Of a stretch of 64,000 nt of DNA, positions 44,437-57,134 are shown piece by piece; within the stretch, counting starts at the first letter, position 1; every line of letters begins with the position of its first letter. Under the pieces are notes generated by a model. That model had not been told where the DNA came from, ran no database searches, and was given only the letters and a program-made list of their open reading frames with translations. The stretch covers positions 1-64,000 of the forward strand of contig JAHEZL010000013.1 in NCBI GenBank assembly GCA_023251095.1, in the 5' to 3' direction. This DNA is from Flavobacteriales bacterium (GTDB lineage: Bacteria; Bacteroidota; Bacteroidia; Flavobacteriales_C; GCA-002722245). Position numbers and translations under genes: made by a program.

Positions 44437-44478
44437 TACAAAAAAGCCGGACTTACTTAAAGCTCCGGCTTTTTTGTT
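44437..44478 (+). terminator. Bidirectional terminator overlapping the end of the converging gene
   Basis: Core arms AAAAAAGCCGGA (44440-44451) and TCCGGCTTTTTT (44464-44475), extended by two or more outer pairs. The 12-nt loop contains the stop codon of the minus-strand GT-C gene (44453-44455), so the 3' arm is also coding sequence for its last residues. Confidence 0.85.
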
Positions 44479-45643
44479 TTATAAATCCCGCCAGTAGAAT
44501 TGCTATTAACCAGGGTTCTATCAGGAGTCGGTGCCGACTTTCAAAATAAAACCAGCATTGCAAAATGCTCAATGCAATAAAGGGAAGCATTAGTAAAAGA
44601 GATTGCTTTGATCGGATCAATACAATCACTAACAGCATTACCAATACAAAATTGAAAATGCGGTAGATAAACCATACGGAATTCACTTTTTCAGAATAAT
44701 TTTTTCCAATGTGATCGGATAAAAGCCAAAAGTTTTTCAGCTTAATGAAAAACATGGAAATAACATGGGCGGGCTCTTCTTTCAATAGATTTTTATATTT
44801 CTCCATGAAGAAATCATTCTGATCTTTAACAGAAAATTTTCCTATTTGCAAGAGTTCGTCTTTGCTGAGCGCGCTGTAATATGTTTCACCGTTCAGCAAA
44901 TAATTTCCGCCTTCGGAATTATGCAAACTTCCTTTCCACAGTATTTTACCATTGGTGGAAGTGAGTCCGGCAATGTCATCGCTAATGTAGTTGTGTATCA
45001 CCCATGGAGCGAGCATAAGCAGCATTCCTAAAATCGATAAGCTAATTTTTTTATAAGCTTTTTGATACAGCAGAATAGCTATTGCAATGAATGGAAATAC
45101 AATAAATGTCCCGCGTCCTAATATGGCGAGTCCGGTGAATATCCCTGCTTCAATAGGTTTGCTGCTTTTTTGATCAATCAAATAAAGAAGAGTTGCAATG
45201 CCGACGTTGAGCATCATGAAATCGTGAGTGAAAGGATGAACGTTCTTAAGTTCGTAATACAAAAAAGCCGGATGAAGTAGTGGAATCAAGGAAAGCAAGC
45301 GGATGTTGTTTTCAGATAAGGTGATCCATTTCTTCTTTTGAAGTTTTGTTAAATTGCGTTTTAACAGCAGGCATCCAATAATTGATAAAAGGATATTTAA
45401 AATAATTCCCGCGATGGGTGCAGGATAAATGGCCAAGGCAATGGAAAGTAAAACCGGATAAACCGGAAATTGAAAGCTGTGGTTAACGGTGCCATCATTG
45501 AAATAAAAGAAGTCGCCATATTTTAAAATATTCTCCGCTATCACATAGTCTTCCCAGGTTTGAACATCGGGGATAAAAAAGGCAACAGTAATTTTTAAGC
45601 AAAGAATGGAAAGCAGGGCGATATAGAAAATTTTCGATTTCAA
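44453..45643 (-). CDS. GT-C-type membrane glycosyltransferase-like protein (ArnT/PMT-like)
   Basis: The 396-residue protein has about ten membrane helices. An early acidic loop, FIPDVQTWEDYVIAENILKYGDFFYF, sits where GT-C enzymes place their catalytic Asp. A central ILGRGTFIVFPFIAIAILLY and APWVIHNY match family 39-like transferases that use polyprenyl-phosphate sugars. The short C-terminal part after the last helix is basic (KQKSRSFK) and is encoded within a terminator arm. Its gene starts 4 bp after the MenE-like gene ends. Donor and acceptor are unknown. Confidence 0.7.
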   Translation of the reverse strand: MKSKIFYIALLSILCLKITVAFFIPDVQTWEDYVIAENILKYGDFFYFNDGTVNHSFQFPVYPVLLSIALAIYPAPIAGIILNILLSIIGCLLLKRNLTKLQKKKWITLSENNIRLLSLIPLLHPAFLYYELKNVHPFTHDFMMLNVGIATLLYLIDQKSSKPIEAGIFTGLAILGRGTFIVFPFIAIAILLYQKAYKKISLSILGMLLMLAPWVIHNYISDDIAGLTSTNGKILWKGSLHNSEGGNYLLNGETYYSALSKDELLQIGKFSVKDQNDFFMEKYKNLLKEEPAHVISMFFIKLKNFWLLSDHIGKNYSEKVNSVWFIYRIFNFVLVMLLVIVLIRSKQSLLLMLPFIALSILQCWFYFESRHRLLIEPWLIAILLAGFIKQKSRSFK

Positions 45644-45647
45644 AATA

Positions 45648-46685
45648 TCACAGAGCGTTTCGTTTTATTTTTCCTGAATCGGTATAATTGAATTTATCAA
45701 TGTTTCTTATCTCTTTGATTTGCTCGTATTTTCCAAGGTATTTGTTGAGTTCATTGAGGTTGAGTGCGGCATCGTTTTCTACTACCAGTATTACTTTATT
45801 GGTGAGTTTTTCATCGGGTTCGGAGGAGATGATGAAAGGTAGAGGAATCAAGGCGCGCAGCTTGTCTTCAATGGTTTCGGGATTGAGTTTTATCCCGCCG
45901 GTGTTGATGATGTTGTCGTGTCGGCCAATCCAGTCGAATTGCTTGTCGTTGTGTAAAATAACCACATCATTGGTGATGATTTCTTCCTCTGATATTTTTG
46001 GAGCGTTGATGATGAGGCAATGCCTGTCGTCCACCGAAAAGGAAACTCCGGGCAAGGCAGTGTAATTCTTTTTCCCGGGAGGATTTATTTGCTGGATGGC
46101 AACATGACTAAGTGTTTCCGTCATTCCGTAAGTATGGTAAACCTCGCATTTAAAGTTGTGCAAAAGCGTTGCTGTTTCTTCGCTCATCGGTCCGCCGCCA
46201 ACAATTATTTTTTCAATTTTATTGATTCTTTCTGCAAAAGGGGAATGTAAAATATCGTAGAGCTGATTGGGTACAAAGGCAGTAAAATCAATATAACTGT
46301 TGAATTCTTCCAGCGGATTTCCTGTTGGTTCAATGGCAAAAAGATTCCATTTCAGTACCGCACTGCGCACCATCATCATTTTTCCGGCAATGTAGTTAGG
46401 AGAAAGGGCGAGGAGGGCTTTTGTATTTTCGCGCAAAGTGAAAAAACTTCCCGTCATGAGGGCGCTGTTGGTGAGTCGCTTTTTTTGAACTTCTATTTCT
46501 TTTGGAATACCTGTTGTTCCTGATGTTTTAAGCGTAATGGTTTCGTTGTCGTTTAGCCATTCTAAGGTAAATTCGGCCAGATCTCTGATCCATTTTTCAG
46601 AATGATTGTTCCATTCATTGCATTGATCGATAATATCCTGCTTTGAAGCGGAGGCGAAATTGATGTTGATTATTTGGGAGCTCAC
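45648..46685 (-). CDS. menE: Short AMP-binding ligase, MenE-like (o-succinylbenzoate-CoA ligase family)
   Basis: The 345-residue adenylate-forming enzyme has the ATP motif TLKTSGTTGIPKE, YHTYGMTE, the hinge DWIGRHDNIINTGGIKL and the terminal lysine region SGKIKRNAL. It lacks the long N-terminal part of most acyl-CoA synthetases, as Bacteroidota MenE does. MenE ligates CoA to o-succinylbenzoate in menaquinone synthesis. No other men genes are adjacent, so assignment rests on length and motif spacing. A lipoprotein gene lies 38 bp upstream and a GT-C gene 4 bp downstream. Confidence 0.75.
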   Translation of the reverse strand: MSSQIININFASASKQDIIDQCNEWNNHSEKWIRDLAEFTLEWLNDNETITLKTSGTTGIPKEIEVQKKRLTNSALMTGSFFTLRENTKALLALSPNYIAGKMMMVRSAVLKWNLFAIEPTGNPLEEFNSYIDFTAFVPNQLYDILHSPFAERINKIEKIIVGGGPMSEETATLLHNFKCEVYHTYGMTETLSHVAIQQINPPGKKNYTALPGVSFSVDDRHCLIINAPKISEEEIITNDVVILHNDKQFDWIGRHDNIINTGGIKLNPETIEDKLRALIPLPFIISSEPDEKLTNKVILVVENDAALNLNELNKYLGKYEQIKEIRNIDKFNYTDSGKIKRNAL

Positions 46686-47772: not shown

Positions 47773-47793
47773 TTAAGAAGAAGGAATATATAG

Positions 47794-47827
47794 AAAACGG
47801 CATCCGTCAATTGACGGATGCCGTTTT
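47794..47827 (+). terminator. Palindromic terminator upstream of the P450 operon
   Basis: A perfect 34-nt palindrome (arms 47794-47810 and 47811-47827, core CATCCGTCAATTGACGGATG) followed by more T to 47831. It separates the hypothetical gene from the P450 operon. Confidence 0.88.
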
Positions 47828-47841
47828 TTTTTATGTCTTAA

Positions 47842-47882: not shown

Positions 47883-49295
47883 ATGCGAAATACTATTTGT
47901 TGGATGAATCTAAATAAAATGGAATTGAATCAGAATCCTCATACAGCAAGGAAAAAAAACCTTCCGCCTGTTGCTAAAGGAGCAATCCCTCTTGTAGGGC
48001 ACTTATTTAAATTTAAAGGAGATACTTATCGTTTTTTGGGTGAGAATTGTAAAACAATGGGCCCCGTATTTTCATTTAAGTTATTGTCGCGTAATTTCTA
48101 TGTATTGAATCATCCTGATTTCATCAAGCATGTTTTGGTAAGCAATGCAAAGAACTATACCCGAAAAAAATCCTATCAGTTTTTAGAGGAAATGCTGGGG
48201 CAGGGTTTGTTGACTACGGAAGGGGAGGAATGGAGAAGAAAACGAAGAATTGCCCAGCCTGCTTTTTACAAGGATCAGCTGGAAAGATTGCTGCATCAAA
48301 TGGAAGTGTCCATTAATAAATTTACCGACAATTGGGAAAACAGAGCCCCCGCAAGAATTGATCTGGATACCGAAATGAATCATTTGGCCCTGAGTATTTT
48401 GAGTTCTTCCATTATTCAAGCGGATTTAGAGCATCAGATACCTTTGGTAAAAAAACATCTTTTGGATGCGTTGACACATTTATCCAATAAGCGTTTCAGG
48501 GCAATAAAATGGTTGAACTACCTTCCCGGCAAAACAAAATCCGATGGTGAAAAAGGAATACAAGCCTTGAAAAGCATTGTGTCGGAAATCATAGCGTCCC
48601 GTAGGAAATCCACTGAAGAACACACCGATTTACTGTCGATGTTCATGTCGTCTACAGATGAAGAGACAGGAGAGAAATTAAGTGATCAGGAATTGCTGGA
48701 TGAAGTGATGACCATGTTTGTAGCCGGCCATGACACTACCTCTGTAGTGCTGACCTGGGCTTTTTGCCTGATAGCTCAGCATCCTGATATTGAAGAAAAA
48801 GTGGTAAAAGAAATCAATGATAATTTCAAGGAAGATTTTCTTTCCATGAGTGAATTGAGAAACTTTCCATATACTAAAATGCTGATACAGGAGGTGATGC
48901 GACTTTATCCTCCAGTTTGGAGTTTTGGAAGAAAAGCAATAGCCGACGATGAGATTAATGGCTATCATGTGCCGGCAAATACCTTTTGTACCATGCCGGC
49001 CATTTTTGTGCACCGTAACCCGGAATTCTGGGAAAAACCAAACGATTTTTATCCTGAGCATTTTTTGCCTGAAAAGGTAAAGGCCCGGCATAAACATGCC
49101 TATTTCCCCTTTAGTGCCGGTCAGCATTTGTGTATAGGAGAACATTATGCATTGATGGAAATACAGTTGGTACTCATCCACCTGCTCAAAAAATATAAAA
49201 TCACACTGGAGTCTGATCAACCCATTGAAATGCAATTGCTGATCACTTTAAAGCCAAAAGACATCGTTTATGCCCATTTTGAAAAACGAAAATAA
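47883..49295 (+). CDS. Cytochrome P450
   Basis: The 470-residue monooxygenase has all P450 landmarks: PPVAKGAIPLVGHL near the N-terminus, the I-helix oxygen-binding motif AGHDTTS (residues 281-287), ExxR in EVMRLYPP (Glu337, Arg340), and the haem loop FSAGQHLCIG with Cys417. Overall it resembles bacterial CYP4/CYP102-like fatty-acid hydroxylases (TTEGEEWRRKRRIAQPAF). No membrane anchor is seen. Starts at 47904 and 47919 (after AAATAAA) are also possible. No ferredoxin or reductase gene is adjacent. It is the first gene of a five-gene operon and probably hydroxylates the pathway's lipophilic substrate (inference). Confidence 0.93.
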   Translation: MRNTICWMNLNKMELNQNPHTARKKNLPPVAKGAIPLVGHLFKFKGDTYRFLGENCKTMGPVFSFKLLSRNFYVLNHPDFIKHVLVSNAKNYTRKKSYQFLEEMLGQGLLTTEGEEWRRKRRIAQPAFYKDQLERLLHQMEVSINKFTDNWENRAPARIDLDTEMNHLALSILSSSIIQADLEHQIPLVKKHLLDALTHLSNKRFRAIKWLNYLPGKTKSDGEKGIQALKSIVSEIIASRRKSTEEHTDLLSMFMSSTDEETGEKLSDQELLDEVMTMFVAGHDTTSVVLTWAFCLIAQHPDIEEKVVKEINDNFKEDFLSMSELRNFPYTKMLIQEVMRLYPPVWSFGRKAIADDEINGYHVPANTFCTMPAIFVHRNPEFWEKPNDFYPEHFLPEKVKARHKHAYFPFSAGQHLCIGEHYALMEIQLVLIHLLKKYKITLESDQPIEMQLLITLKPKDIVYAHFEKRK

Positions 49296-49303
49296 TTTAT
49301 CTT

Positions 49304-50065
49304 ATGGATTCATATACAGAAAAGCCTTGGCTTAGCTATAGAAATGACATCATTGATTTTTTAAATTTAAGGAAGGATCAAAATCCTGCATGCGCTATAT
49401 TTGAAGCGGATATTACTAAGGCAACACAAATTATTACTAAACATAAAGACAGGAATCCTTCAAATTCTACCCTCGCGTATTTGTTGTGGTGTTACGCACA
49501 AGCCATTAAAAAACATCCGGAGATGCAGGCCATCAAAAAAGGGAAAAAACTTATTTTGTTTGATGATGTTGATATCACAATGATATTTGAAAAAACACTT
49601 CCCAACGGAGAAAAGGCTCCTGTTCCTCATATTTTTCGTTCGGTTCAAAATAAATCTTATGCTGATATTAAAGCAGAAATCCTGAGTTTGAAAGACAAAG
49701 ATTTGTCAGAAATAAACAAAAGAAAGAAGAGTCGGTTTTTTAAAGTATTACCTGCTTTTTTACGAATGTCCATTTTAAAAATGGCGCTAAAAGATCCTGT
49801 TCGCCGGAAGCAGGCATTGGGAACAGTTGCTTTTACTACGCTGGGACTTACCGTAAGAAACAGAAAGTTCTGGCCGGTACCTATCGGTCCTTATCCATGC
49901 TCCATAGCCGCGGGTTCTTCCGTAATTGATAAAGGAATACAGGGCGATAAAAATATTTGGTGCTTAACGATCAGTTTTGATCACAATATGAATGACGGGG
50001 CTCCGGCAGTGCGTTTCGGTCAAACGTTTATTAACTTATTGGAAAGCGGGGAAGGATTATTATGA
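49304..50065 (+). CDS. Stand-alone E2-type (2-oxo acid dehydrogenase) acyltransferase-domain protein
   Basis: The 253-residue protein matches only the chloramphenicol-acetyltransferase-like catalytic core of E2 enzymes. An N-terminal region (RNDIIDFLNLRKDQNPACAIFEADITKA) precedes DVDITMIFEK. The catalytic motif near the end is FDHNMNDGAPAVRF, with His227 and Asp231-Gly232 (HxxxDG). There is no lipoyl domain and no E3-binding domain, so it is not part of a dehydrogenase complex. The fold transfers acyl groups from CoA or carrier thioesters, so acylation of the operon's product is plausible. It starts 8 bp after the P450 gene and overlaps the methyltransferase start by 4 bp. Confidence 0.8.
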   Translation: MDSYTEKPWLSYRNDIIDFLNLRKDQNPACAIFEADITKATQIITKHKDRNPSNSTLAYLLWCYAQAIKKHPEMQAIKKGKKLILFDDVDITMIFEKTLPNGEKAPVPHIFRSVQNKSYADIKAEILSLKDKDLSEINKRKKSRFFKVLPAFLRMSILKMALKDPVRRKQALGTVAFTTLGLTVRNRKFWPVPIGPYPCSIAAGSSVIDKGIQGDKNIWCLTISFDHNMNDGAPAVRFGQTFINLLESGEGLL

Positions 50066-50955
50066 AAAAAAATAAGCCAAGTGCCACCGCAATGTTTGTC
50101 GCCAACGGCATGTATTACAATATTCATCAGGAAATGCTGCAACAGGACATTCCTGAAGATGTGAAAAAATACAATGCGCAACTCATTGAGCATTTTTATG
50201 GAATCAAAAGTAAGGGCTCAAAACGCTGGCGCCTTTTCATTTGTAACATTGTGCAATTGTTTTCCATCAGAGGATTTTTTTTGCATTTCCTTATCCGGAA
50301 AAAATGCATAGAAAAGCAAGTGAAAGAATCGATAGCACAAGGATATGGTCAAGTTGTTATTTTGGGTGCGGGTTATGATACCTTGTGTTCACGATTGGCA
50401 GAACAACATCCAAATGTAAATTTCATTGAATTGGATCATCCGGCCACAGCTGCTAATAAAGTTGCTCTATTTAAGGACTTGGAGTGGCAGAAGTCGAATA
50501 TTAAATATCTCGCACATGATTTAAAAAATATTGATGCGGCCTTTAAAAGCAATGAAATCAATACGAGCTTAAAAACTGTTTTTGTTTGCGAAGGTGTTTT
50601 TATGTATCTCCAACAGGAAGAGGTAAAACAGATTTTAAATGCAGTGAATCAATATTTTAAAAGTGATTGTAAATTTGTTTTTACGTTCATGGAGGAATCA
50701 GCATCGGGCAACTATATGTTTAAAAATGCCACAGCTTTTGTGAAGTTATTGCTGAAACTGAAAAATGAACCTTTTACCTGGGGCATGAAACCGGAAAACA
50801 TTGGGAAATTTCTCGAAAGTAACTCATGGTATTTGATGGATATCTTCGATCATCAAAAATTAAAAAGAGATTTTTTATCCAAAGAAAACCAACACCTTCC
50901 TGTAGCGATAGGTGAAAATGTTGTGTGTGCTATAAACCACAAAAATGGGAAATAA
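50062..50955 (+). CDS. LCM-family (TIGR00027-type) SAM-dependent methyltransferase
   Basis: The 297-residue protein starts with the family pattern PSATAMFVANGMYY. The SAM site is VVILGAGYDTLCSRL (residues ~98-112), followed by FIELDHPATAANK, FVCEGVFMYLQQEEV and FTFMEES. This family (leucine carboxyl methyltransferase fold) methylates carboxyl or hydroxyl groups, often in polyketide-like or lipid products. Its neighbours suggest methylation of an acyl acid or its conjugate. It overlaps the gene before by 4 bp and the next by 11 bp. Confidence 0.85.
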   Translation: MKKNKPSATAMFVANGMYYNIHQEMLQQDIPEDVKKYNAQLIEHFYGIKSKGSKRWRLFICNIVQLFSIRGFFLHFLIRKKCIEKQVKESIAQGYGQVVILGAGYDTLCSRLAEQHPNVNFIELDHPATAANKVALFKDLEWQKSNIKYLAHDLKNIDAAFKSNEINTSLKTVFVCEGVFMYLQQEEVKQILNAVNQYFKSDCKFVFTFMEESASGNYMFKNATAFVKLLLKLKNEPFTWGMKPENIGKFLESNSWYLMDIFDHQKLKRDFLSKENQHLPVAIGENVVCAINHKNGK

Positions 50956-53494
50956 AACAAGATATAAAGTATTGCAGTATGGGATTTATCCTGTAACCAT
51001 GCTTCTTTCTGTTGTTTTGTTTTTTGCTTTGCAAGCTGTTGATGAAAAATACTTAGCGGCTACTACCGTGCCGGTTTTGTTTGCCATCCTCATTATTATC
51101 ATCAGTGAAAAATACCTGCCGTTTAAAAAAGAGTGGAAGCCAACTACAAAGGATTTTAAAAATGATGGACTCTATCTTTTGCTGATTCAAACCCTATTGC
51201 CTAAGATTTTTGTTTGGTTGCTGGCCTTGTTTACGCTGCGTTTTTTAAAGCGGAATGATTTGATCATTTTCGATATATGGCCTTCTCATCTTCCTCTCGG
51301 AATTCAGGCCCTGATGGTGGTGCTCATATCAGATTTTGCAAGGTACTGGCTGCATCGGTTGAATCATACTATTCCTGTTTTATGGCGCTTGCATGCGGTT
51401 CATCATTCGGTAGATAAAATGTACTGGATGAATACTTCCCGTTTTCATCCGCTGGAAAAAGCACTACAATTTCTAATGGATGTTCTTCCATTTATGCTGT
51501 TGGGGGTTCCGGAAGAAGTACTTGCCTTGCATTTGGTGTTGTATGGTGTGAACGGATTTTTTCAGCATTGCAACATCGACCTGAAGTTTGGCTGGCTCAA
51601 CTACATTGTGAGCAGTACGGAGTTGCACCGGTGGCATCATTCACGCCTTCCCGAAGAATCCAATAATAATTATGGTAACAATGTTATTGTTTGGGATCTT
51701 TTATTCGGATCGTATTTTATACCTGAAGAAAGAAAAGTTGAAGAACTGGGACTGATCAATAAAAACTATCCTTCGGATTTTACGGGCCAGATGAAAGCGC
51801 CGCTAAGAAACAATTACGATAAAATAGATTCGCCTGAAATAAGTCTTTCAGCTTTGCTTTTGAATTGGCTGATGAAAGTCAAAATTGCCATTATTAAAAG
51901 AACCAGCTACAAAGATTTTTATGAAGGAACTAAGCGATGTGCTTTTCAGCAAAATCAGGTTTTGTTGCGTATTATCAACAACAATAAAAACACATCTTTT
52001 GGTGAAAATCATTCATTTAATTCCATTGCTACTTACCAGGATTTTAAAAAGTTAGTTCCTGTAAACACTTATGAAGATTTAAAACCTTACATCGTTGAGC
52101 AGGCAAAAAACAAAAACACTAAATCAATAATAAGCGATGAAATTATCATGTTCAACAAAACGAGTGGTACTACATCGGAACCTAAATTGATACCGGTAAC
52201 CCGGCAGACTTTAAAAGGGCTCAAAAAAAGTCAGCAGATATCTATGTATTTGCAATATAAAAGTCAGTCTTTGGGTTATGTGGGGAAAGTTATGGGAATT
52301 GTAAGTCCTGCAATTGATTCAATGAGTGAATACAATATTCCCGTGGGTTCAGCATCCGGACTTTTTTATAAAAACATGCCTTTCTTTGTCCGCAGTAAGT
52401 ATGTGGTGCCGCACGCTGTATTTGAAATTGATGATTATGAATTAAAATACTACTGCATTTTGCTACTTAGCCTGCAACATACAGATGTCACTTATTGCGG
52501 AACTGCAAATCCTACTACATTTTTAAAATTGACTAAAATTTTAAATGAAAGAAAAGCTGATTTTTTAAAGGATTTAAAATCGGGTTCTGTTTCCGGCTTA
52601 GCAGAAAAATCTGAGATAAGAGAAGTGATTTTAAAAAAGCTGAAGCCTTCAAAAGAGAGAATAGCGGAACTTGAAAAAATATTTGAATCGCAGGAAAAGC
52701 TGGCCTTTCACCATTTGTGGCCACATATAAAATTGCTCACTACCTGGTCGGGAGGAAGCTGTGGTGTTGCATTAAAAACGGTTCTTGAACTGATGCCTGA
52801 AAACACAACAGTGATTGATCCTGGCTATCTTTCCAGCGAATTGCGCGGATCGATTACCTTCGATGCAAAAACGCAAGGCGGACTTTTTACTTTTCAGGAT
52901 AATTTTTTTGAATTTGTTGAACGCAGCAACTGGGAAAGCGAAAAGCTTGAATTTCTTCTTCTCCATGAGCTGGAAGTAAATAAGGAATATTATCTTTTTG
53001 TGACTACTTCGGCAGGGTTGTATCGTTATAATATGAATGATATTATAAAAGTAAGTGGCTTCGTTAATCAGTGTCCGCTTGTACATTTCATTCAAAAAGG
53101 AAAAGGAGTGTGCAACATCACCGGTGAAAAATTATATGAAAGTCAGTTGTTAACGGCTTTAAACCAATTGGGATTAAACTATTTATTTGTTCAGGTTTTG
53201 GCCAATGAAGAAACCTGTACTTACGAATGTTATATTGAAACAGATAAAACCATCAACAGCGATTCGGTTTCCGATCAGCTAGATGCATTGATTTGCGAAC
53301 AAAATATGGAATACAAAGAAAAACGGGCCAGCAAAAGATTGAAGCGCATTGAAATAAAAAACCTGAAAACAGGCGCCTTTGATTTAATTAAGCAACAATT
53401 CATACTCACGGGTAAAAATGAAAGTCAGTACAAAACCATTTTGCTGCAGTATAAAAAAGATATGGGTACCGACTTAAATCAATATCTGAAATAA
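50945..53494 (+). CDS. Fusion: fatty acid hydroxylase/sterol desaturase domain + GH3-type acyl-acid amido synthetase domain
   Basis: One uninterrupted 849-residue frame. Residues ~1-280 are a membrane di-iron hydroxylase: several hydrophobic helices and the His clusters HRLNH (137-141), HAVHH (150-154), H208 and HRWHH (228-232). Residues ~310-849 are a GH3-family (auxin-responsive type) adenylating enzyme. Its ATP motif is FNKTSGTTSEPK (403-414), the YxxSE motif is GYLSSE (627-632), and YRYNMND (693-699) ends the motif set, followed by VSGF and a GEKLYE stretch. The plant relatives form acyl-adenylates and couple them to amino acids. I infer hydroxylation of a lipid acid and its amide formation by one protein. 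Overlaps the methyltransferase gene by 11 bp; one base separates it from the enolase gene. Confidence 0.88.
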   Translation: MGNKTRYKVLQYGIYPVTMLLSVVLFFALQAVDEKYLAATTVPVLFAILIIIISEKYLPFKKEWKPTTKDFKNDGLYLLLIQTLLPKIFVWLLALFTLRFLKRNDLIIFDIWPSHLPLGIQALMVVLISDFARYWLHRLNHTIPVLWRLHAVHHSVDKMYWMNTSRFHPLEKALQFLMDVLPFMLLGVPEEVLALHLVLYGVNGFFQHCNIDLKFGWLNYIVSSTELHRWHHSRLPEESNNNYGNNVIVWDLLFGSYFIPEERKVEELGLINKNYPSDFTGQMKAPLRNNYDKIDSPEISLSALLLNWLMKVKIAIIKRTSYKDFYEGTKRCAFQQNQVLLRIINNNKNTSFGENHSFNSIATYQDFKKLVPVNTYEDLKPYIVEQAKNKNTKSIISDEIIMFNKTSGTTSEPKLIPVTRQTLKGLKKSQQISMYLQYKSQSLGYVGKVMGIVSPAIDSMSEYNIPVGSASGLFYKNMPFFVRSKYVVPHAVFEIDDYELKYYCILLLSLQHTDVTYCGTANPTTFLKLTKILNERKADFLKDLKSGSVSGLAEKSEIREVILKKLKPSKERIAELEKIFESQEKLAFHHLWPHIKLLTTWSGGSCGVALKTVLELMPENTTVIDPGYLSSELRGSITFDAKTQGGLFTFQDNFFEFVERSNWESEKLEFLLLHELEVNKEYYLFVTTSAGLYRYNMNDIIKVSGFVNQCPLVHFIQKGKGVCNITGEKLYESQLLTALNQLGLNYLFVQVLANEETCTYECYIETDKTINSDSVSDQLDALICEQNMEYKEKRASKRLKRIEIKNLKTGAFDLIKQQFILTGKNESQYKTILLQYKKDMGTDLNQYLK

Positions 53495-53495
53495 G

Positions 53496-54608
53496 ATGCT
53501 GAAAACTTTAGAATTCGTCAGTTTAAAAATTCCTTTCAAGTTAAGTTTTAAGCATAATTCTGCTGAAAGAAAAGAAACTCAAACATTAATTATTATTGCT
53601 GATGATGGTATATTCAAAGGTTATGGTGAAGGTTGTCCGCGGGAATATGTGACGAATGAATCCATGCTTACGGCAAACAATTTTTTTAGTAAAGTAAAAA
53701 GTATAATTATAGAAGAGATTTGTGATCTGGATTCCCTAGTGCTTTTTAAAAATAAAAATGCCCCTGATATCGAAAAAAATCATGCAGCATGGTGTGCGAT
53801 TGAAATTGCCTTATTGGATTTGTTTGCAAAACAAAAGCATTGTTCTGTAGAGAAATTATTGAAGCGGAATGAACTCAGCGGTGAATTTAAATATACTGCT
53901 GTTGTGGGGGATGGTTCTGTGAAATATTTTACGGAAATAGTGCGTCAACATCTGAAACTTGGTTTTAATGATTTCAAATTAAAAATAAGTGGCAATGCAG
54001 AAATTGACTATGAAAAAATAGCTATTTTAAAGGATTTGTGCAGCTCATGTACCATCAGGCTGGATGCCAATAATGTTTGGGAAAATACAGCGGATGTTGT
54101 TCGTTATATCAATAGACTACCCTTTCCGATTAGTGCTTTGGAAGAACCGCTTCAGGATAAAAAACTGGATAGTCTTATAGCACTTTCCAAAGAAATTAAA
54201 ACACCAATTATTCTTGATGAATGTTTCAATCATTTTGATGATCTGCAAAAAATAGCGCTGTATAAAGAAGCTTTTATTATAAATCTTAGAGTATCGAAAA
54301 TGGGCGGAATCATTAATTCATTAAGGATAGCTGATTTTTGTGTTGAAAATGGAATAGCAGTGAATATAGGTGCTCAAGTGGGAGAAACAAGCATTTTAAC
54401 TCGTGCAGCTTTGTTTATTGCTAATGCAATTAGCCCACATTATATTGGCTTGGAAGGTGGGTATGGAACTTTTTTATTGCAAAATGATCTTGTTGAAAAA
54501 CCTTTAATGTTTGGTGAAGGAGGAGTAATGGATCCGAAGGTTTTGTTGGATCATGAAGTAAATGGACTTCAGCTCAATGTTTTAGGGGATAATTTAAAAC
54601 TTCGCTAA
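53496..54608 (+). CDS. Enolase-superfamily enzyme (muconate lactonizing/dipeptide-epimerase-like)
   Basis: The 370-residue protein has an enolase N-terminal capping domain (FKHNSAERKETQT, GYGEGCPREYVT) and a barrel with the full catalytic set. This set is Lys161/Lys163 in FKLKISG, Asp190 in RLDANN, Glu216 in LEEPL, Asp241 in LDECF and Lys268 in SKMGG. The two opposed lysines are what epimerases, racemases and o-succinylbenzoate synthases need. The eighth strand reads GLEGGYG and lacks the DxD seen in L-Ala-D/L-Glu epimerases, so a dipeptide is not assured as substrate. It is the last gene of the P450 operon and overlaps the TonB receptor gene (opposite strand) by 15 bp. Confidence 0.82.
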   Translation: MLKTLEFVSLKIPFKLSFKHNSAERKETQTLIIIADDGIFKGYGEGCPREYVTNESMLTANNFFSKVKSIIIEEICDLDSLVLFKNKNAPDIEKNHAAWCAIEIALLDLFAKQKHCSVEKLLKRNELSGEFKYTAVVGDGSVKYFTEIVRQHLKLGFNDFKLKISGNAEIDYEKIAILKDLCSSCTIRLDANNVWENTADVVRYINRLPFPISALEEPLQDKKLDSLIALSKEIKTPIILDECFNHFDDLQKIALYKEAFIINLRVSKMGGIINSLRIADFCVENGIAVNIGAQVGETSILTRAALFIANAISPHYIGLEGGYGTFLLQNDLVEKPLMFGEGGVMDPKVLLDHEVNGLQLNVLGDNLKLR

Positions 54609-57134
54609 AACTCTAAAGTTCAGCAAGCGACTTGTTAAATGGTTGGGCACTGCATATTGCGTGTTGGCCACATCTTTGATCCAAAAATAACTTACGGTAT
54701 TTTCAATATCGAGCAAATTGAACACTTCGGCGCGCAGCATCAATCCATCCAGAAAGCGGAGCAGGCTGGTTTGTTTGATAGGTACCAATTGTTTTCCTTT
54801 TCGGAGGAGATTGTCTTTAATGACTTCATAAGAGAAACCGATGTCTACACGGCGGTAATCAGGAATGCGCAATACATTGCGAAATTGCACCGACCCCGGC
54901 ACTCCAAAGGGATAACCTGTTCCGTAGCTCAGGGTAAGGTGAAGTTTTAAAGCAGGGAAGCGTGGCATTTCATCTTGAAAAAAGAGATTGGCTGCAAAGC
55001 GCTGGTCGGTGGAGCGGGGAATGAATCCCGGATTCACTTTTAAACTGTCGGTAGCCACATTGTTGGTGGTGTAGCCGCTGTGAATTTCTTCTCCTTGTGA
55101 ATTGAAATAGCGGTAATAATAATTGTTGGTGATGTCTTCCTGAGTGGTCATGTAAGTGAGACTTAACCAGGATTCCAGTCCTTTTACAAATTCACCGTTC
55201 AGTCGCCCTTCAATTCCTCTTGCAAAGCCGTGTGAACTGTTTGTGCCATAGTAATTGATTTGTACCTGATCTACATCGTAAGGAATTAAATTGTAGAGGT
55301 CTTTGTAGTAGGCTTCTGTGGTGAGTTTAAAGGGGCGTTTCCACCAGTAAAAGCTGCTGGTCATAGCTATGCCATACTGAATAGAGGTTTGCGCCATTAC
55401 GCCTGTTTGTAATTGGTATTGCAAATTTCTTAGTTCTTTGTAAAAAGGGGGTTGCTGGTAAACGCCAACATAGGCGCGGTAAGCAAATTTTAAACTGTCG
55501 CTTGCTTTGTGGGAGGGGAGGTAGTTGAGCAATACACGCGGACTCACCACCACTTGTTGATTGTAGTCCCAGTAGTTGGCCCGAATTCCGGTGGACATTG
55601 TTAACTCTCTTCCGTTTTTATTACTGAACAGCGACCAGTTTCTTTGCAGAAAGGCCATGAAGCGATTGGTTTGTAATTGATTGTTGGCTTGAATCGAAAC
55701 GGGAAAAACAATCTGCTGACCGGTGTTGGGTAAGGAATAGCCCGCCGAATCCAGGTTTTGCCATTGTTTGTAGGAGGCATCAATGATTTCCATCTGGTAT
55801 TTCAATCCCCACAACCAGCCGCCTTTTTCGTATTTGTATTCGCCGTTCCATTCAAAATTATAAATGGTGGCGTTGAGCTGACTCCGCGTGTGATTGAGAA
55901 AGGAACCTGCGCCTAAATTAAAAGCTACTTTTCCGAAATCGGTACTTCCCAAATCATTTTCCAGAGAGTTAAGCGCATAGGCACCCAAAATATCGAAACC
56001 TACTTTTTCATTTGTGTTGTAGGCCGAGGTGTTGAATTTCATTTTTAGGCGGTAGTTCGGTTTGTATTCGGCCGAGAAGGCTCCGAAATAACTTTCAAAT
56101 ATATCGTCCTCTTTTCCTTCAAAAAATACTTTTAACTGAAAAGCATTGTTGATCCCACCAAACCTGGTTTCTCTGTTGGCAGGAATAGAGAAAAATTCAT
56201 TGCGTGCGATGTTTCCCAAAAAAGAGATTTCCCATTTTTTACCGAGAGGATAAGTGATGTAGGTTTGAAAATCAATAAAATTTGGTTTGTAAGTTCCCTG
56301 TGTTTCTGTGGAGTTGAGTAAATAAGCATTTGATTTTTGGCGGAAGCCCATCAGATAAGTTCCTTTGTTACGGGCGAATTTTCCTTCGGTATGAGCCCGA
56401 ACACCTAGTAAACTAAGGTTAAGCGAGTGGGCTATGGAATCGGGTTTTTTGTAGGTGATGTCCAGTACCGACGACATTTTATCTCCGAAACGGGCTTCGA
56501 AACCACCGGCATAAAAATTAAGATTGTCGACCATATCCGAGTTCACAAAACTCAATCCTTCCTGCTCTCCCGCACGCACCAGTAGGGGTCGGAAGATTTC
56601 AATGCCGTTGACATAAATTAAATTTTCATCGAAGTTTCCTCCGCGAACGGAGTATTGACTGCTTAGTTCATTGTTGTTGCTTACTCCGGGCAATGATTTT
56701 ATAATGTCGGTTGCGTCACCACCGGCCGAAACAAAGTTATTGAGGTGTTTCGCATTGATTTTTATTTCTCCCTTGCTGTTTTTTTCTCTTTCAATTTTTA
56801 TCACTTTAGTGGATAAAATATGGAGAGTCATTACCATATTTAAATTAAGCTTTTCACCCGGTGCCACTTTAATTTTTTTGATGATGGGCAGATAGTTGAT
56901 CTGGGTGAATTCCAGCGTGAAAGCTTTATTGGCCGGTAATTTTATGGCAAAGGTACCACTGTCGCCGGTGCTGTTTATTTCACGGAGTTCACTTACGTAT
57001 ATGTAAACGTCTTTAATTAAAGTTCCGTTGCTGTCTCTAAGGGAACCATATACTTCTCCCTGATCTTGCGCCAAACTTTGAATCGAACAAAAGGCAAGAA
57101 AAAAGAGAATGATATGTGAAAAGCTACTTTTCAA
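54594..57134 (-). CDS. TonB-dependent outer-membrane receptor
   Basis: The 846-residue protein has a signal peptide (MKSSFSHIILFFLAFCSIQSLAQ). A carboxypeptidase-regulatory-like domain follows (EVYGSLRDSNGTLIKDVYIYVS, residues ~25-100). Then come the plug (DATDIIKSLPGVSNNNELSSQYSVRGGNFDENLIYVNGIE, ~140-230) and a 22-strand-type barrel. The C-terminus reads RLLNFRVLAKF, ending in Phe. Substrate class is not evident; no SusD-like partner is adjacent. Its start overlaps the preceding gene by 11 bp, and its 3' end overlaps the enolase gene on the other strand. Confidence 0.9.
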   Translation of the reverse strand: MKSSFSHIILFFLAFCSIQSLAQDQGEVYGSLRDSNGTLIKDVYIYVSELREINSTGDSGTFAIKLPANKAFTLEFTQINYLPIIKKIKVAPGEKLNLNMVMTLHILSTKVIKIEREKNSKGEIKINAKHLNNFVSAGGDATDIIKSLPGVSNNNELSSQYSVRGGNFDENLIYVNGIEIFRPLLVRAGEQEGLSFVNSDMVDNLNFYAGGFEARFGDKMSSVLDITYKKPDSIAHSLNLSLLGVRAHTEGKFARNKGTYLMGFRQKSNAYLLNSTETQGTYKPNFIDFQTYITYPLGKKWEISFLGNIARNEFFSIPANRETRFGGINNAFQLKVFFEGKEDDIFESYFGAFSAEYKPNYRLKMKFNTSAYNTNEKVGFDILGAYALNSLENDLGSTDFGKVAFNLGAGSFLNHTRSQLNATIYNFEWNGEYKYEKGGWLWGLKYQMEIIDASYKQWQNLDSAGYSLPNTGQQIVFPVSIQANNQLQTNRFMAFLQRNWSLFSNKNGRELTMSTGIRANYWDYNQQVVVSPRVLLNYLPSHKASDSLKFAYRAYVGVYQQPPFYKELRNLQYQLQTGVMAQTSIQYGIAMTSSFYWWKRPFKLTTEAYYKDLYNLIPYDVDQVQINYYGTNSSHGFARGIEGRLNGEFVKGLESWLSLTYMTTQEDITNNYYYRYFNSQGEEIHSGYTTNNVATDSLKVNPGFIPRSTDQRFAANLFFQDEMPRFPALKLHLTLSYGTGYPFGVPGSVQFRNVLRIPDYRRVDIGFSYEVIKDNLLRKGKQLVPIKQTSLLRFLDGLMLRAEVFNLLDIENTVSYFWIKDVANTQYAVPNHLTSRLLNFRVLAKF

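Follow-up and report, generated by a model that had tools for sequence, protein, structure and literature searches.

A hydroxylase–GH3 gene cluster in Bacteroidota and Nitrospinota as a candidate carrier-free route to amino lipids

OlsH, the GH3 enzyme of the Singulisphaera OlsH/OlsI pathway published in 2025, requires neither CoA nor ACP to produce N-acyl-ornithine from a free fatty acid, ATP, and Mg2+, and shows minor activity on lysine and arginine (PMC12493201). Its authors expect several OlsH homologues to use other amino acids; they count over 7500 GH3 homologues in bacteria, nearly 90% of them in Bacteroidota, and urge work on their diverse functions (PMC12493201). This paper was the sole relevant match in a literature search for the cluster described here and for bacterial GH3 biosynthetic clusters.

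The window analyzed here, a stretch of 64,000 nucleotides from a Flavobacteriales genome, contains a five-gene cluster that is best read as a variant of this known kind of GH3-dependent amino-lipid synthesis. As in the OlsH/OlsI pathway (PMC12493201), a GH3 enzyme is encoded in an operon beside lipid-modifying enzymes, amide formation would be carrier-free, and the genome is without OlsB and OlsF. No PF13444 (OlsB/OlsF-type) gene was found in the genome, which rules out classical OlsB/OlsF amino-lipid synthesis there. The cluster differs from the OlsH/OlsI pathway, however, in that its GH3 domain scores far below the OlsH cut-off and that no adjoining gene is recognized as OlsG (N-methyltransferase) or OlsI (alpha/beta-hydrolase). 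It also adds an OlsE-like hydroxylase, often fused to the GH3 enzyme, and a racemase-like enzyme, and its candidate O-acyltransferase has an unrelated fold (E2/CAT). A first-pass annotation knew of no described pathway with this exact gene set, a statement that has to be narrowed: the cluster lies near a published type, with OlsE and OlsH as its closest relatives.

The five open reading frames follow one another on the forward strand with intergenic gaps of 8, −4, −11, and +1 bp. Upstream, the operon is bounded by the intrinsic terminator of the preceding gene (47792–47829), a 17-pair palindromic stem followed by a T-run; downstream, a converging gene on the reverse strand (54594–57134) overlaps the 3′ end of the last operon gene by 15 bp. 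Our ORF and Pfam check reproduced the one-strand, five-gene operon of the first-pass annotation in coordinates, gaps, and domains, and both of the boundaries that it had named. A terminator scan found no terminator-like sites on the forward strand within the operon, and a sigma-70 promoter scan was uninformative (19 found versus 22.6 expected). The GC content of the operon (33.6–39.3%, with the enolase-type gene at the low end) falls inside the range of the window, so there is no clear sign of recent import. Near the operon, and divergent from it, a gene at 45648–46685 (reverse strand) encodes a short, MenE-like AMP-binding protein of 345 residues that lies outside the conserved cluster; the gene at 44453–45643 (reverse strand) encodes a protein of 396 residues with multiple membrane spans and no Pfam match.

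The largest protein of the operon, encoded at 50945–53494 on the forward strand, has 849 residues and joins a membrane FA_hydroxylase domain to a complete three-domain GH3 enzyme. Its structure model has a mean pLDDT of 83, with the hydroxylase half weaker. The N-terminal domain (50945–51832, forward strand; PF04116, E = 5e-31), part of the conserved core, belongs to the FA_hydroxylase/sterol desaturase superfamily of membrane di-iron enzymes (108 bits against a Pfam cut-off of 31), and the histidine boxes HX3H, HX2HH, and HX2HH are kept in all 13 hydroxylases of the cluster type. The nearest curated family is OlsE (NF052566), the ornithine-lipid head-group hydroxylase; the window domain, which carries the superfamily's three histidine boxes, differs from OlsE in its score, 187.1 bits against a cut-off of 475, and in being fused or operon-linked to GH3.

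The C-terminal part (51833–53494, forward strand; PF03321/PF23571/PF23572, E = 6e-66 for the N domain), likewise a core component, is a GH3 adenylating amide synthetase whose N, central, and C domains score 223, 75, and 52 bits against a Pfam cut-off of 23.6. The nucleotide-binding motifs TSGTT, GYLSSE, and YRYNMND are intact in the window and present in most members; in two Nitrospinota members, motif 2 or 3 departs from the simple search patterns. The domain matches plant GH3 structures by profile and by fold. With GH3.12, GH3.15, and JAR1 it shares the fold and the three nucleotide-binding motifs, but it is only 20–26% identical to them, bacterial, and linked to a membrane hydroxylase. The best NCBIfam match is OlsH (NF052613), at 76.9 bits against a cut-off of 620. 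OlsE and OlsH are the best NCBIfam matches across the cluster members too, and in the window each is the sole match of its half of the fusion; since both fall far below their cut-offs, the substrates may differ. Two further GH3 genes lie elsewhere in the genome, and a plasmid search with the GH3 domain gave no match.

When 84,980 species genomes were scanned for close relatives, two loci came up, one in an uncultured Flavobacteriales MAG (L040) and one in a Nitrospinaceae MAG (L041). GH3 profile searches detected this GH3 type in 5 of 395 genomes from the class to which the window belongs (each with E = 1e-236 or better, and no others at E = 1e-80), in 2 of 395 genomes across the phylum, the window's own included, in 2 of 245 genomes of a second Bacteroidota class, and in 6 of 77 genomes of the Nitrospinota, the phylum of L041. 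It is missing from all four congeners and from the five other family members examined. A three-gene core of OlsE-like hydroxylase, GH3, and enolase-superfamily enzyme defines 14 loci: the window, seven others in Bacteroidota, and six in Nitrospinota. The order P450–E2–hydroxylase–GH3–enolase is found in the Bacteroidota loci G024, G219, G310 (where the enolase gene is cut), G607, G812, and L040; in G331 only GH3–enolase is visible, the hydroxylase being lost at a contig end. The six Nitrospinota loci read small membrane protein–hydroxylase–GH3–enolase and have neither P450 nor E2. Hydroxylase and GH3 are fused in six genomes, namely the window's and all those just listed with the P450–E2 order except L040, and are separate but adjacent in seven (L040 and all Nitrospinota). 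Most gene joints in the Bacteroidota loci overlap by 4 bp. In both the GH3 tree and the hydroxylase tree, the window's class stands apart from G607/G812 and the Nitrospinota. The enolase-gene tree has poor support and does not enter the argument for a shared history.

A profile of the enolase-type enzyme, four rows of which come from these clusters, picks exactly the GH3-positive genomes (5 of 395 in the class and 6 of 77 in Nitrospinota), with no unpaired case. The corresponding Fisher p values, 1e-11 for the 395 genomes and 4e-9 for the 77, overstate independence, because profile rows were drawn from the clusters, the genes lie side by side, and several of the genomes are closely related. 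So strict a partnership between this GH3 type and the enolase-type enzyme in two phyla was unexpected, as was the hydroxylase–GH3 fusion in Bacteroidota. In two phyla, with a Nitrospinaceae genome among the carriers, one GH3 subfamily is linked both to a hydroxylase and to a racemase-like enzyme.

These data bear on the possibility that unrelated genes came to lie together by chance in a single genome, as the LCM gene, found only in the window, might suggest. The core recurs at 14 loci in two phyla, and its GH3 and enolase types pair without exception, which makes this hardly credible and refutes it for the core; the LCM gene alone may have been placed by chance. The view of the first-pass annotation that the operon is built on the hydroxylase–GH3 protein, is carrier-free, and involves no PKS or NRPS is supported, and the operon is co-conserved. 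The co-occurrence of five families that it had envisaged in other genomes holds for the hydroxylase–GH3–enolase core, while P450 and E2 are confined to Bacteroidota; as a unit, the exact set of five does not survive, the LCM gene being unique to the window among the 14 loci. Directly upstream of the hydroxylase, all six Nitrospinota loci carry a membrane protein of about 150 residues without a significant Pfam match (L060, 11627–12091, reverse strand; L041, 9521–9970, forward strand; equivalents in L061–L064), which none of the Bacteroidota loci has.

The third core enzyme (53496–54608, forward strand; MR_MLE_C, E = 3e-26) had been labeled an enolase-superfamily enzyme, which is correct as to superfamily but generic. 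All 13 complete members have the KxK motif, the D-E-D metal ligands, and the strand 6 lysine of the MLE subgroup, and by structure and motifs the enzyme looks like an N-succinyl/N-acyl amino acid racemase, with racemase activity putative. Among the solved folds nearest to its structure model (pLDDT 86) are dipeptide epimerases and N-acyl/N-succinyl amino acid racemases. With N-succinyl-Arg/Lys racemase (2P88) and the dipeptide epimerases 3JVA, 1JPM, and 3Q45 it shares the fold, the metal site, the KxK motif, and the opposing lysine; it differs in lacking DxD, in having its own HxxxxR and CPRxY loops, and, in most comparisons, in a one-residue insertion before the strand 7 glutamate. Strand 8 reads E-G-G/A in all 13 complete members, as against DxD in the three solved dipeptide epimerases, DFD in a dipeptide-epimerase paralogue of the same genome, and E-L-T in the solved N-succinyl-Arg/Lys racemase, which the cluster enzyme resembles at this position. 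The DxD motif of dipeptide epimerases binds the substrate ammonium, the free amine of the dipeptide. Its loss rules out a dipeptide epimerase and would suit a substrate with an amine that already bears an acyl group, the kind of product expected from the neighboring GH3 enzyme. Invariant HxxxxR, CPRxY, and QVGE(T/S)S motifs (residues 20–25, 47–51, and 294–299) distinguish the subgroup from the solved relatives compared. The capping (specificity) loops carry invariant Arg25 and Arg49, and these may mean that the substrate group is anionic, not basic.

The enzyme scores similarly against MenC, DgcA, and muconate models. It does not reach the NCBIfam MenC models (98 versus 200 and 56 versus 130 bits), and these cut-offs, the co-conservation with GH3 in Nitrospinota, and another MLE-type paralogue on contig 16, MenC-like by eye, rule out a MenC role. 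The enolase superfamily readily switches between reactions such as dehydration, OSBS, and cycloisomerization. The enzyme might thus be a dehydratase or lyase acting on the product or a precursor, for example a β-hydroxy acid or a hydroxylated head group; eliminations use the same fold and metal site, and models of cis-3-hydroxy-L-proline dehydratase and sugar-acid dehydratase also match below cut-off. We consider this decidedly unlikely, as the nearest solved structures, whether compared by sequence or by fold, are epimerases and racemases that share its KxK...K pair.

We regard it as moderately probable that this operon specifies a carrier-free route to an amino lipid (N-acyl amino acid), combining GH3 ligation, hydroxylation, and α-epimerization. 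This reading draws on the synteny of the core, seen at 14 loci in two phyla, the GH3/enolase pairing, the fusion or adjacency of hydroxylase and GH3, the OlsE and OlsH matches, the motifs and fold neighbors of the enolase-type enzyme, and the absence of a PF13444 gene. Against it count the sub-threshold OlsE and OlsH scores, Arg25 and Arg49, the ease with which enolases switch reaction, and the lack of P450 and E2 in Nitrospinota. Substrates, step order, and product are predicted here from the core genes, their conservation, and their intact catalytic motifs. The gene set probably makes an uncharacterized membrane-type lipid from a fatty acid and an amino acid, which gives a concrete product class for one bacterial GH3 subfamily. 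Using ATP, the GH3 enzyme would activate a free fatty acid as its adenylate and pass the acyl group to the α-amine of an amino acid, which for OlsH is ornithine; here ornithine or lysine is the most likely amino acid, though weakly indicated. The fused hydroxylase, which would hold the ligase at the membrane beside it, would then act on the head group of the product, as OlsE does, or on the acyl chain. With Mg2+ and its two lysines, the enolase-type enzyme would remove and return the α-proton of the N-acyl amino acid, yielding an epimeric (D) head group. In Bacteroidota, the P450 would oxidize the acyl chain and the E2/CAT-fold enzyme would attach an acyl group to the new hydroxyl by an ester bond, in the role of OlsA, OlsF, or OlsI; together they could build an acyloxyacyl lipid. 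In the window organism alone, the LCM enzyme would probably methylate a carboxylate of the product. The order of all steps after ligation, up to esterification, is a guess.

A further, tentative proposal, on balance doubtful, is that epimerization of the N-acyl amino acid follows amide formation and leads to membrane lipids whose hydroxylated head group has the D configuration, made by a hydroxylase–ligase fusion and an enolase-superfamily lipid epimerase. To our knowledge, lipids are not an established substrate class of the enolase superfamily. If true, the proposal would extend the superfamily to lipids, and it predicts an undescribed stereo-configured amino lipid.

In place of a membrane lipid, the competing product is a small specialized metabolite, a signal or antibiotic of the acyl-amide or acyl-dipeptide kind. 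GH3 would then link an amino acid or dipeptide to an acid other than a fatty acid, stereochemistry would be set by the epimerase, and the other four enzymes would decorate the product. The P450 and LCM proteins resemble tailoring enzymes, the curated models nearest to the P450 are terpenoid oxidases, GH3 enzymes of plants act on small aromatic acids or on jasmonates, and a rare, patchy distribution, with four congeners and five family members lacking the cluster, is typical of accessory metabolites. We nevertheless consider this product unlikely: the ligase's fusion to a membrane di-iron domain and the resemblance to OlsE and OlsH favor a lipid, no conserved dedicated transporter or regulator was seen beside the core among those flanking genes that were annotated, and the loss of DxD speaks against a free dipeptide.

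The hydroxylated acyl amide of the first-pass annotation remains the simplest reading of the product, but its methylation does not carry over: no LCM homologue is present among the ORFs of any other of the 14 loci, so methylation is no general product feature. The LCM-type SAM methyltransferase (50062–50955, forward strand; PF04072, E = 5e-26) scores just above the TIGR00027 cut-off and had no match in a PDB search. The E2/CAT-fold acyltransferase (49304–50065, forward strand; PF00198, 2-oxoacid_dh, E = 2e-13) stands alone without a lipoyl domain; its catalytic HxxxDG is kept in all seven Bacteroidota copies, and its solved relatives are remote. The P450 (47883–49295, forward strand; PF00067, E = 5e-96) has intact catalytic motifs in the window, the heme motif FSAGQHLCIG and AGHDTT, and 3dbg and CYP102/BM3 types as its nearest solved structures. 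Because homologues lack its first dozen residues, its true start may lie a few codons downstream, for example at the ATG at 47919.
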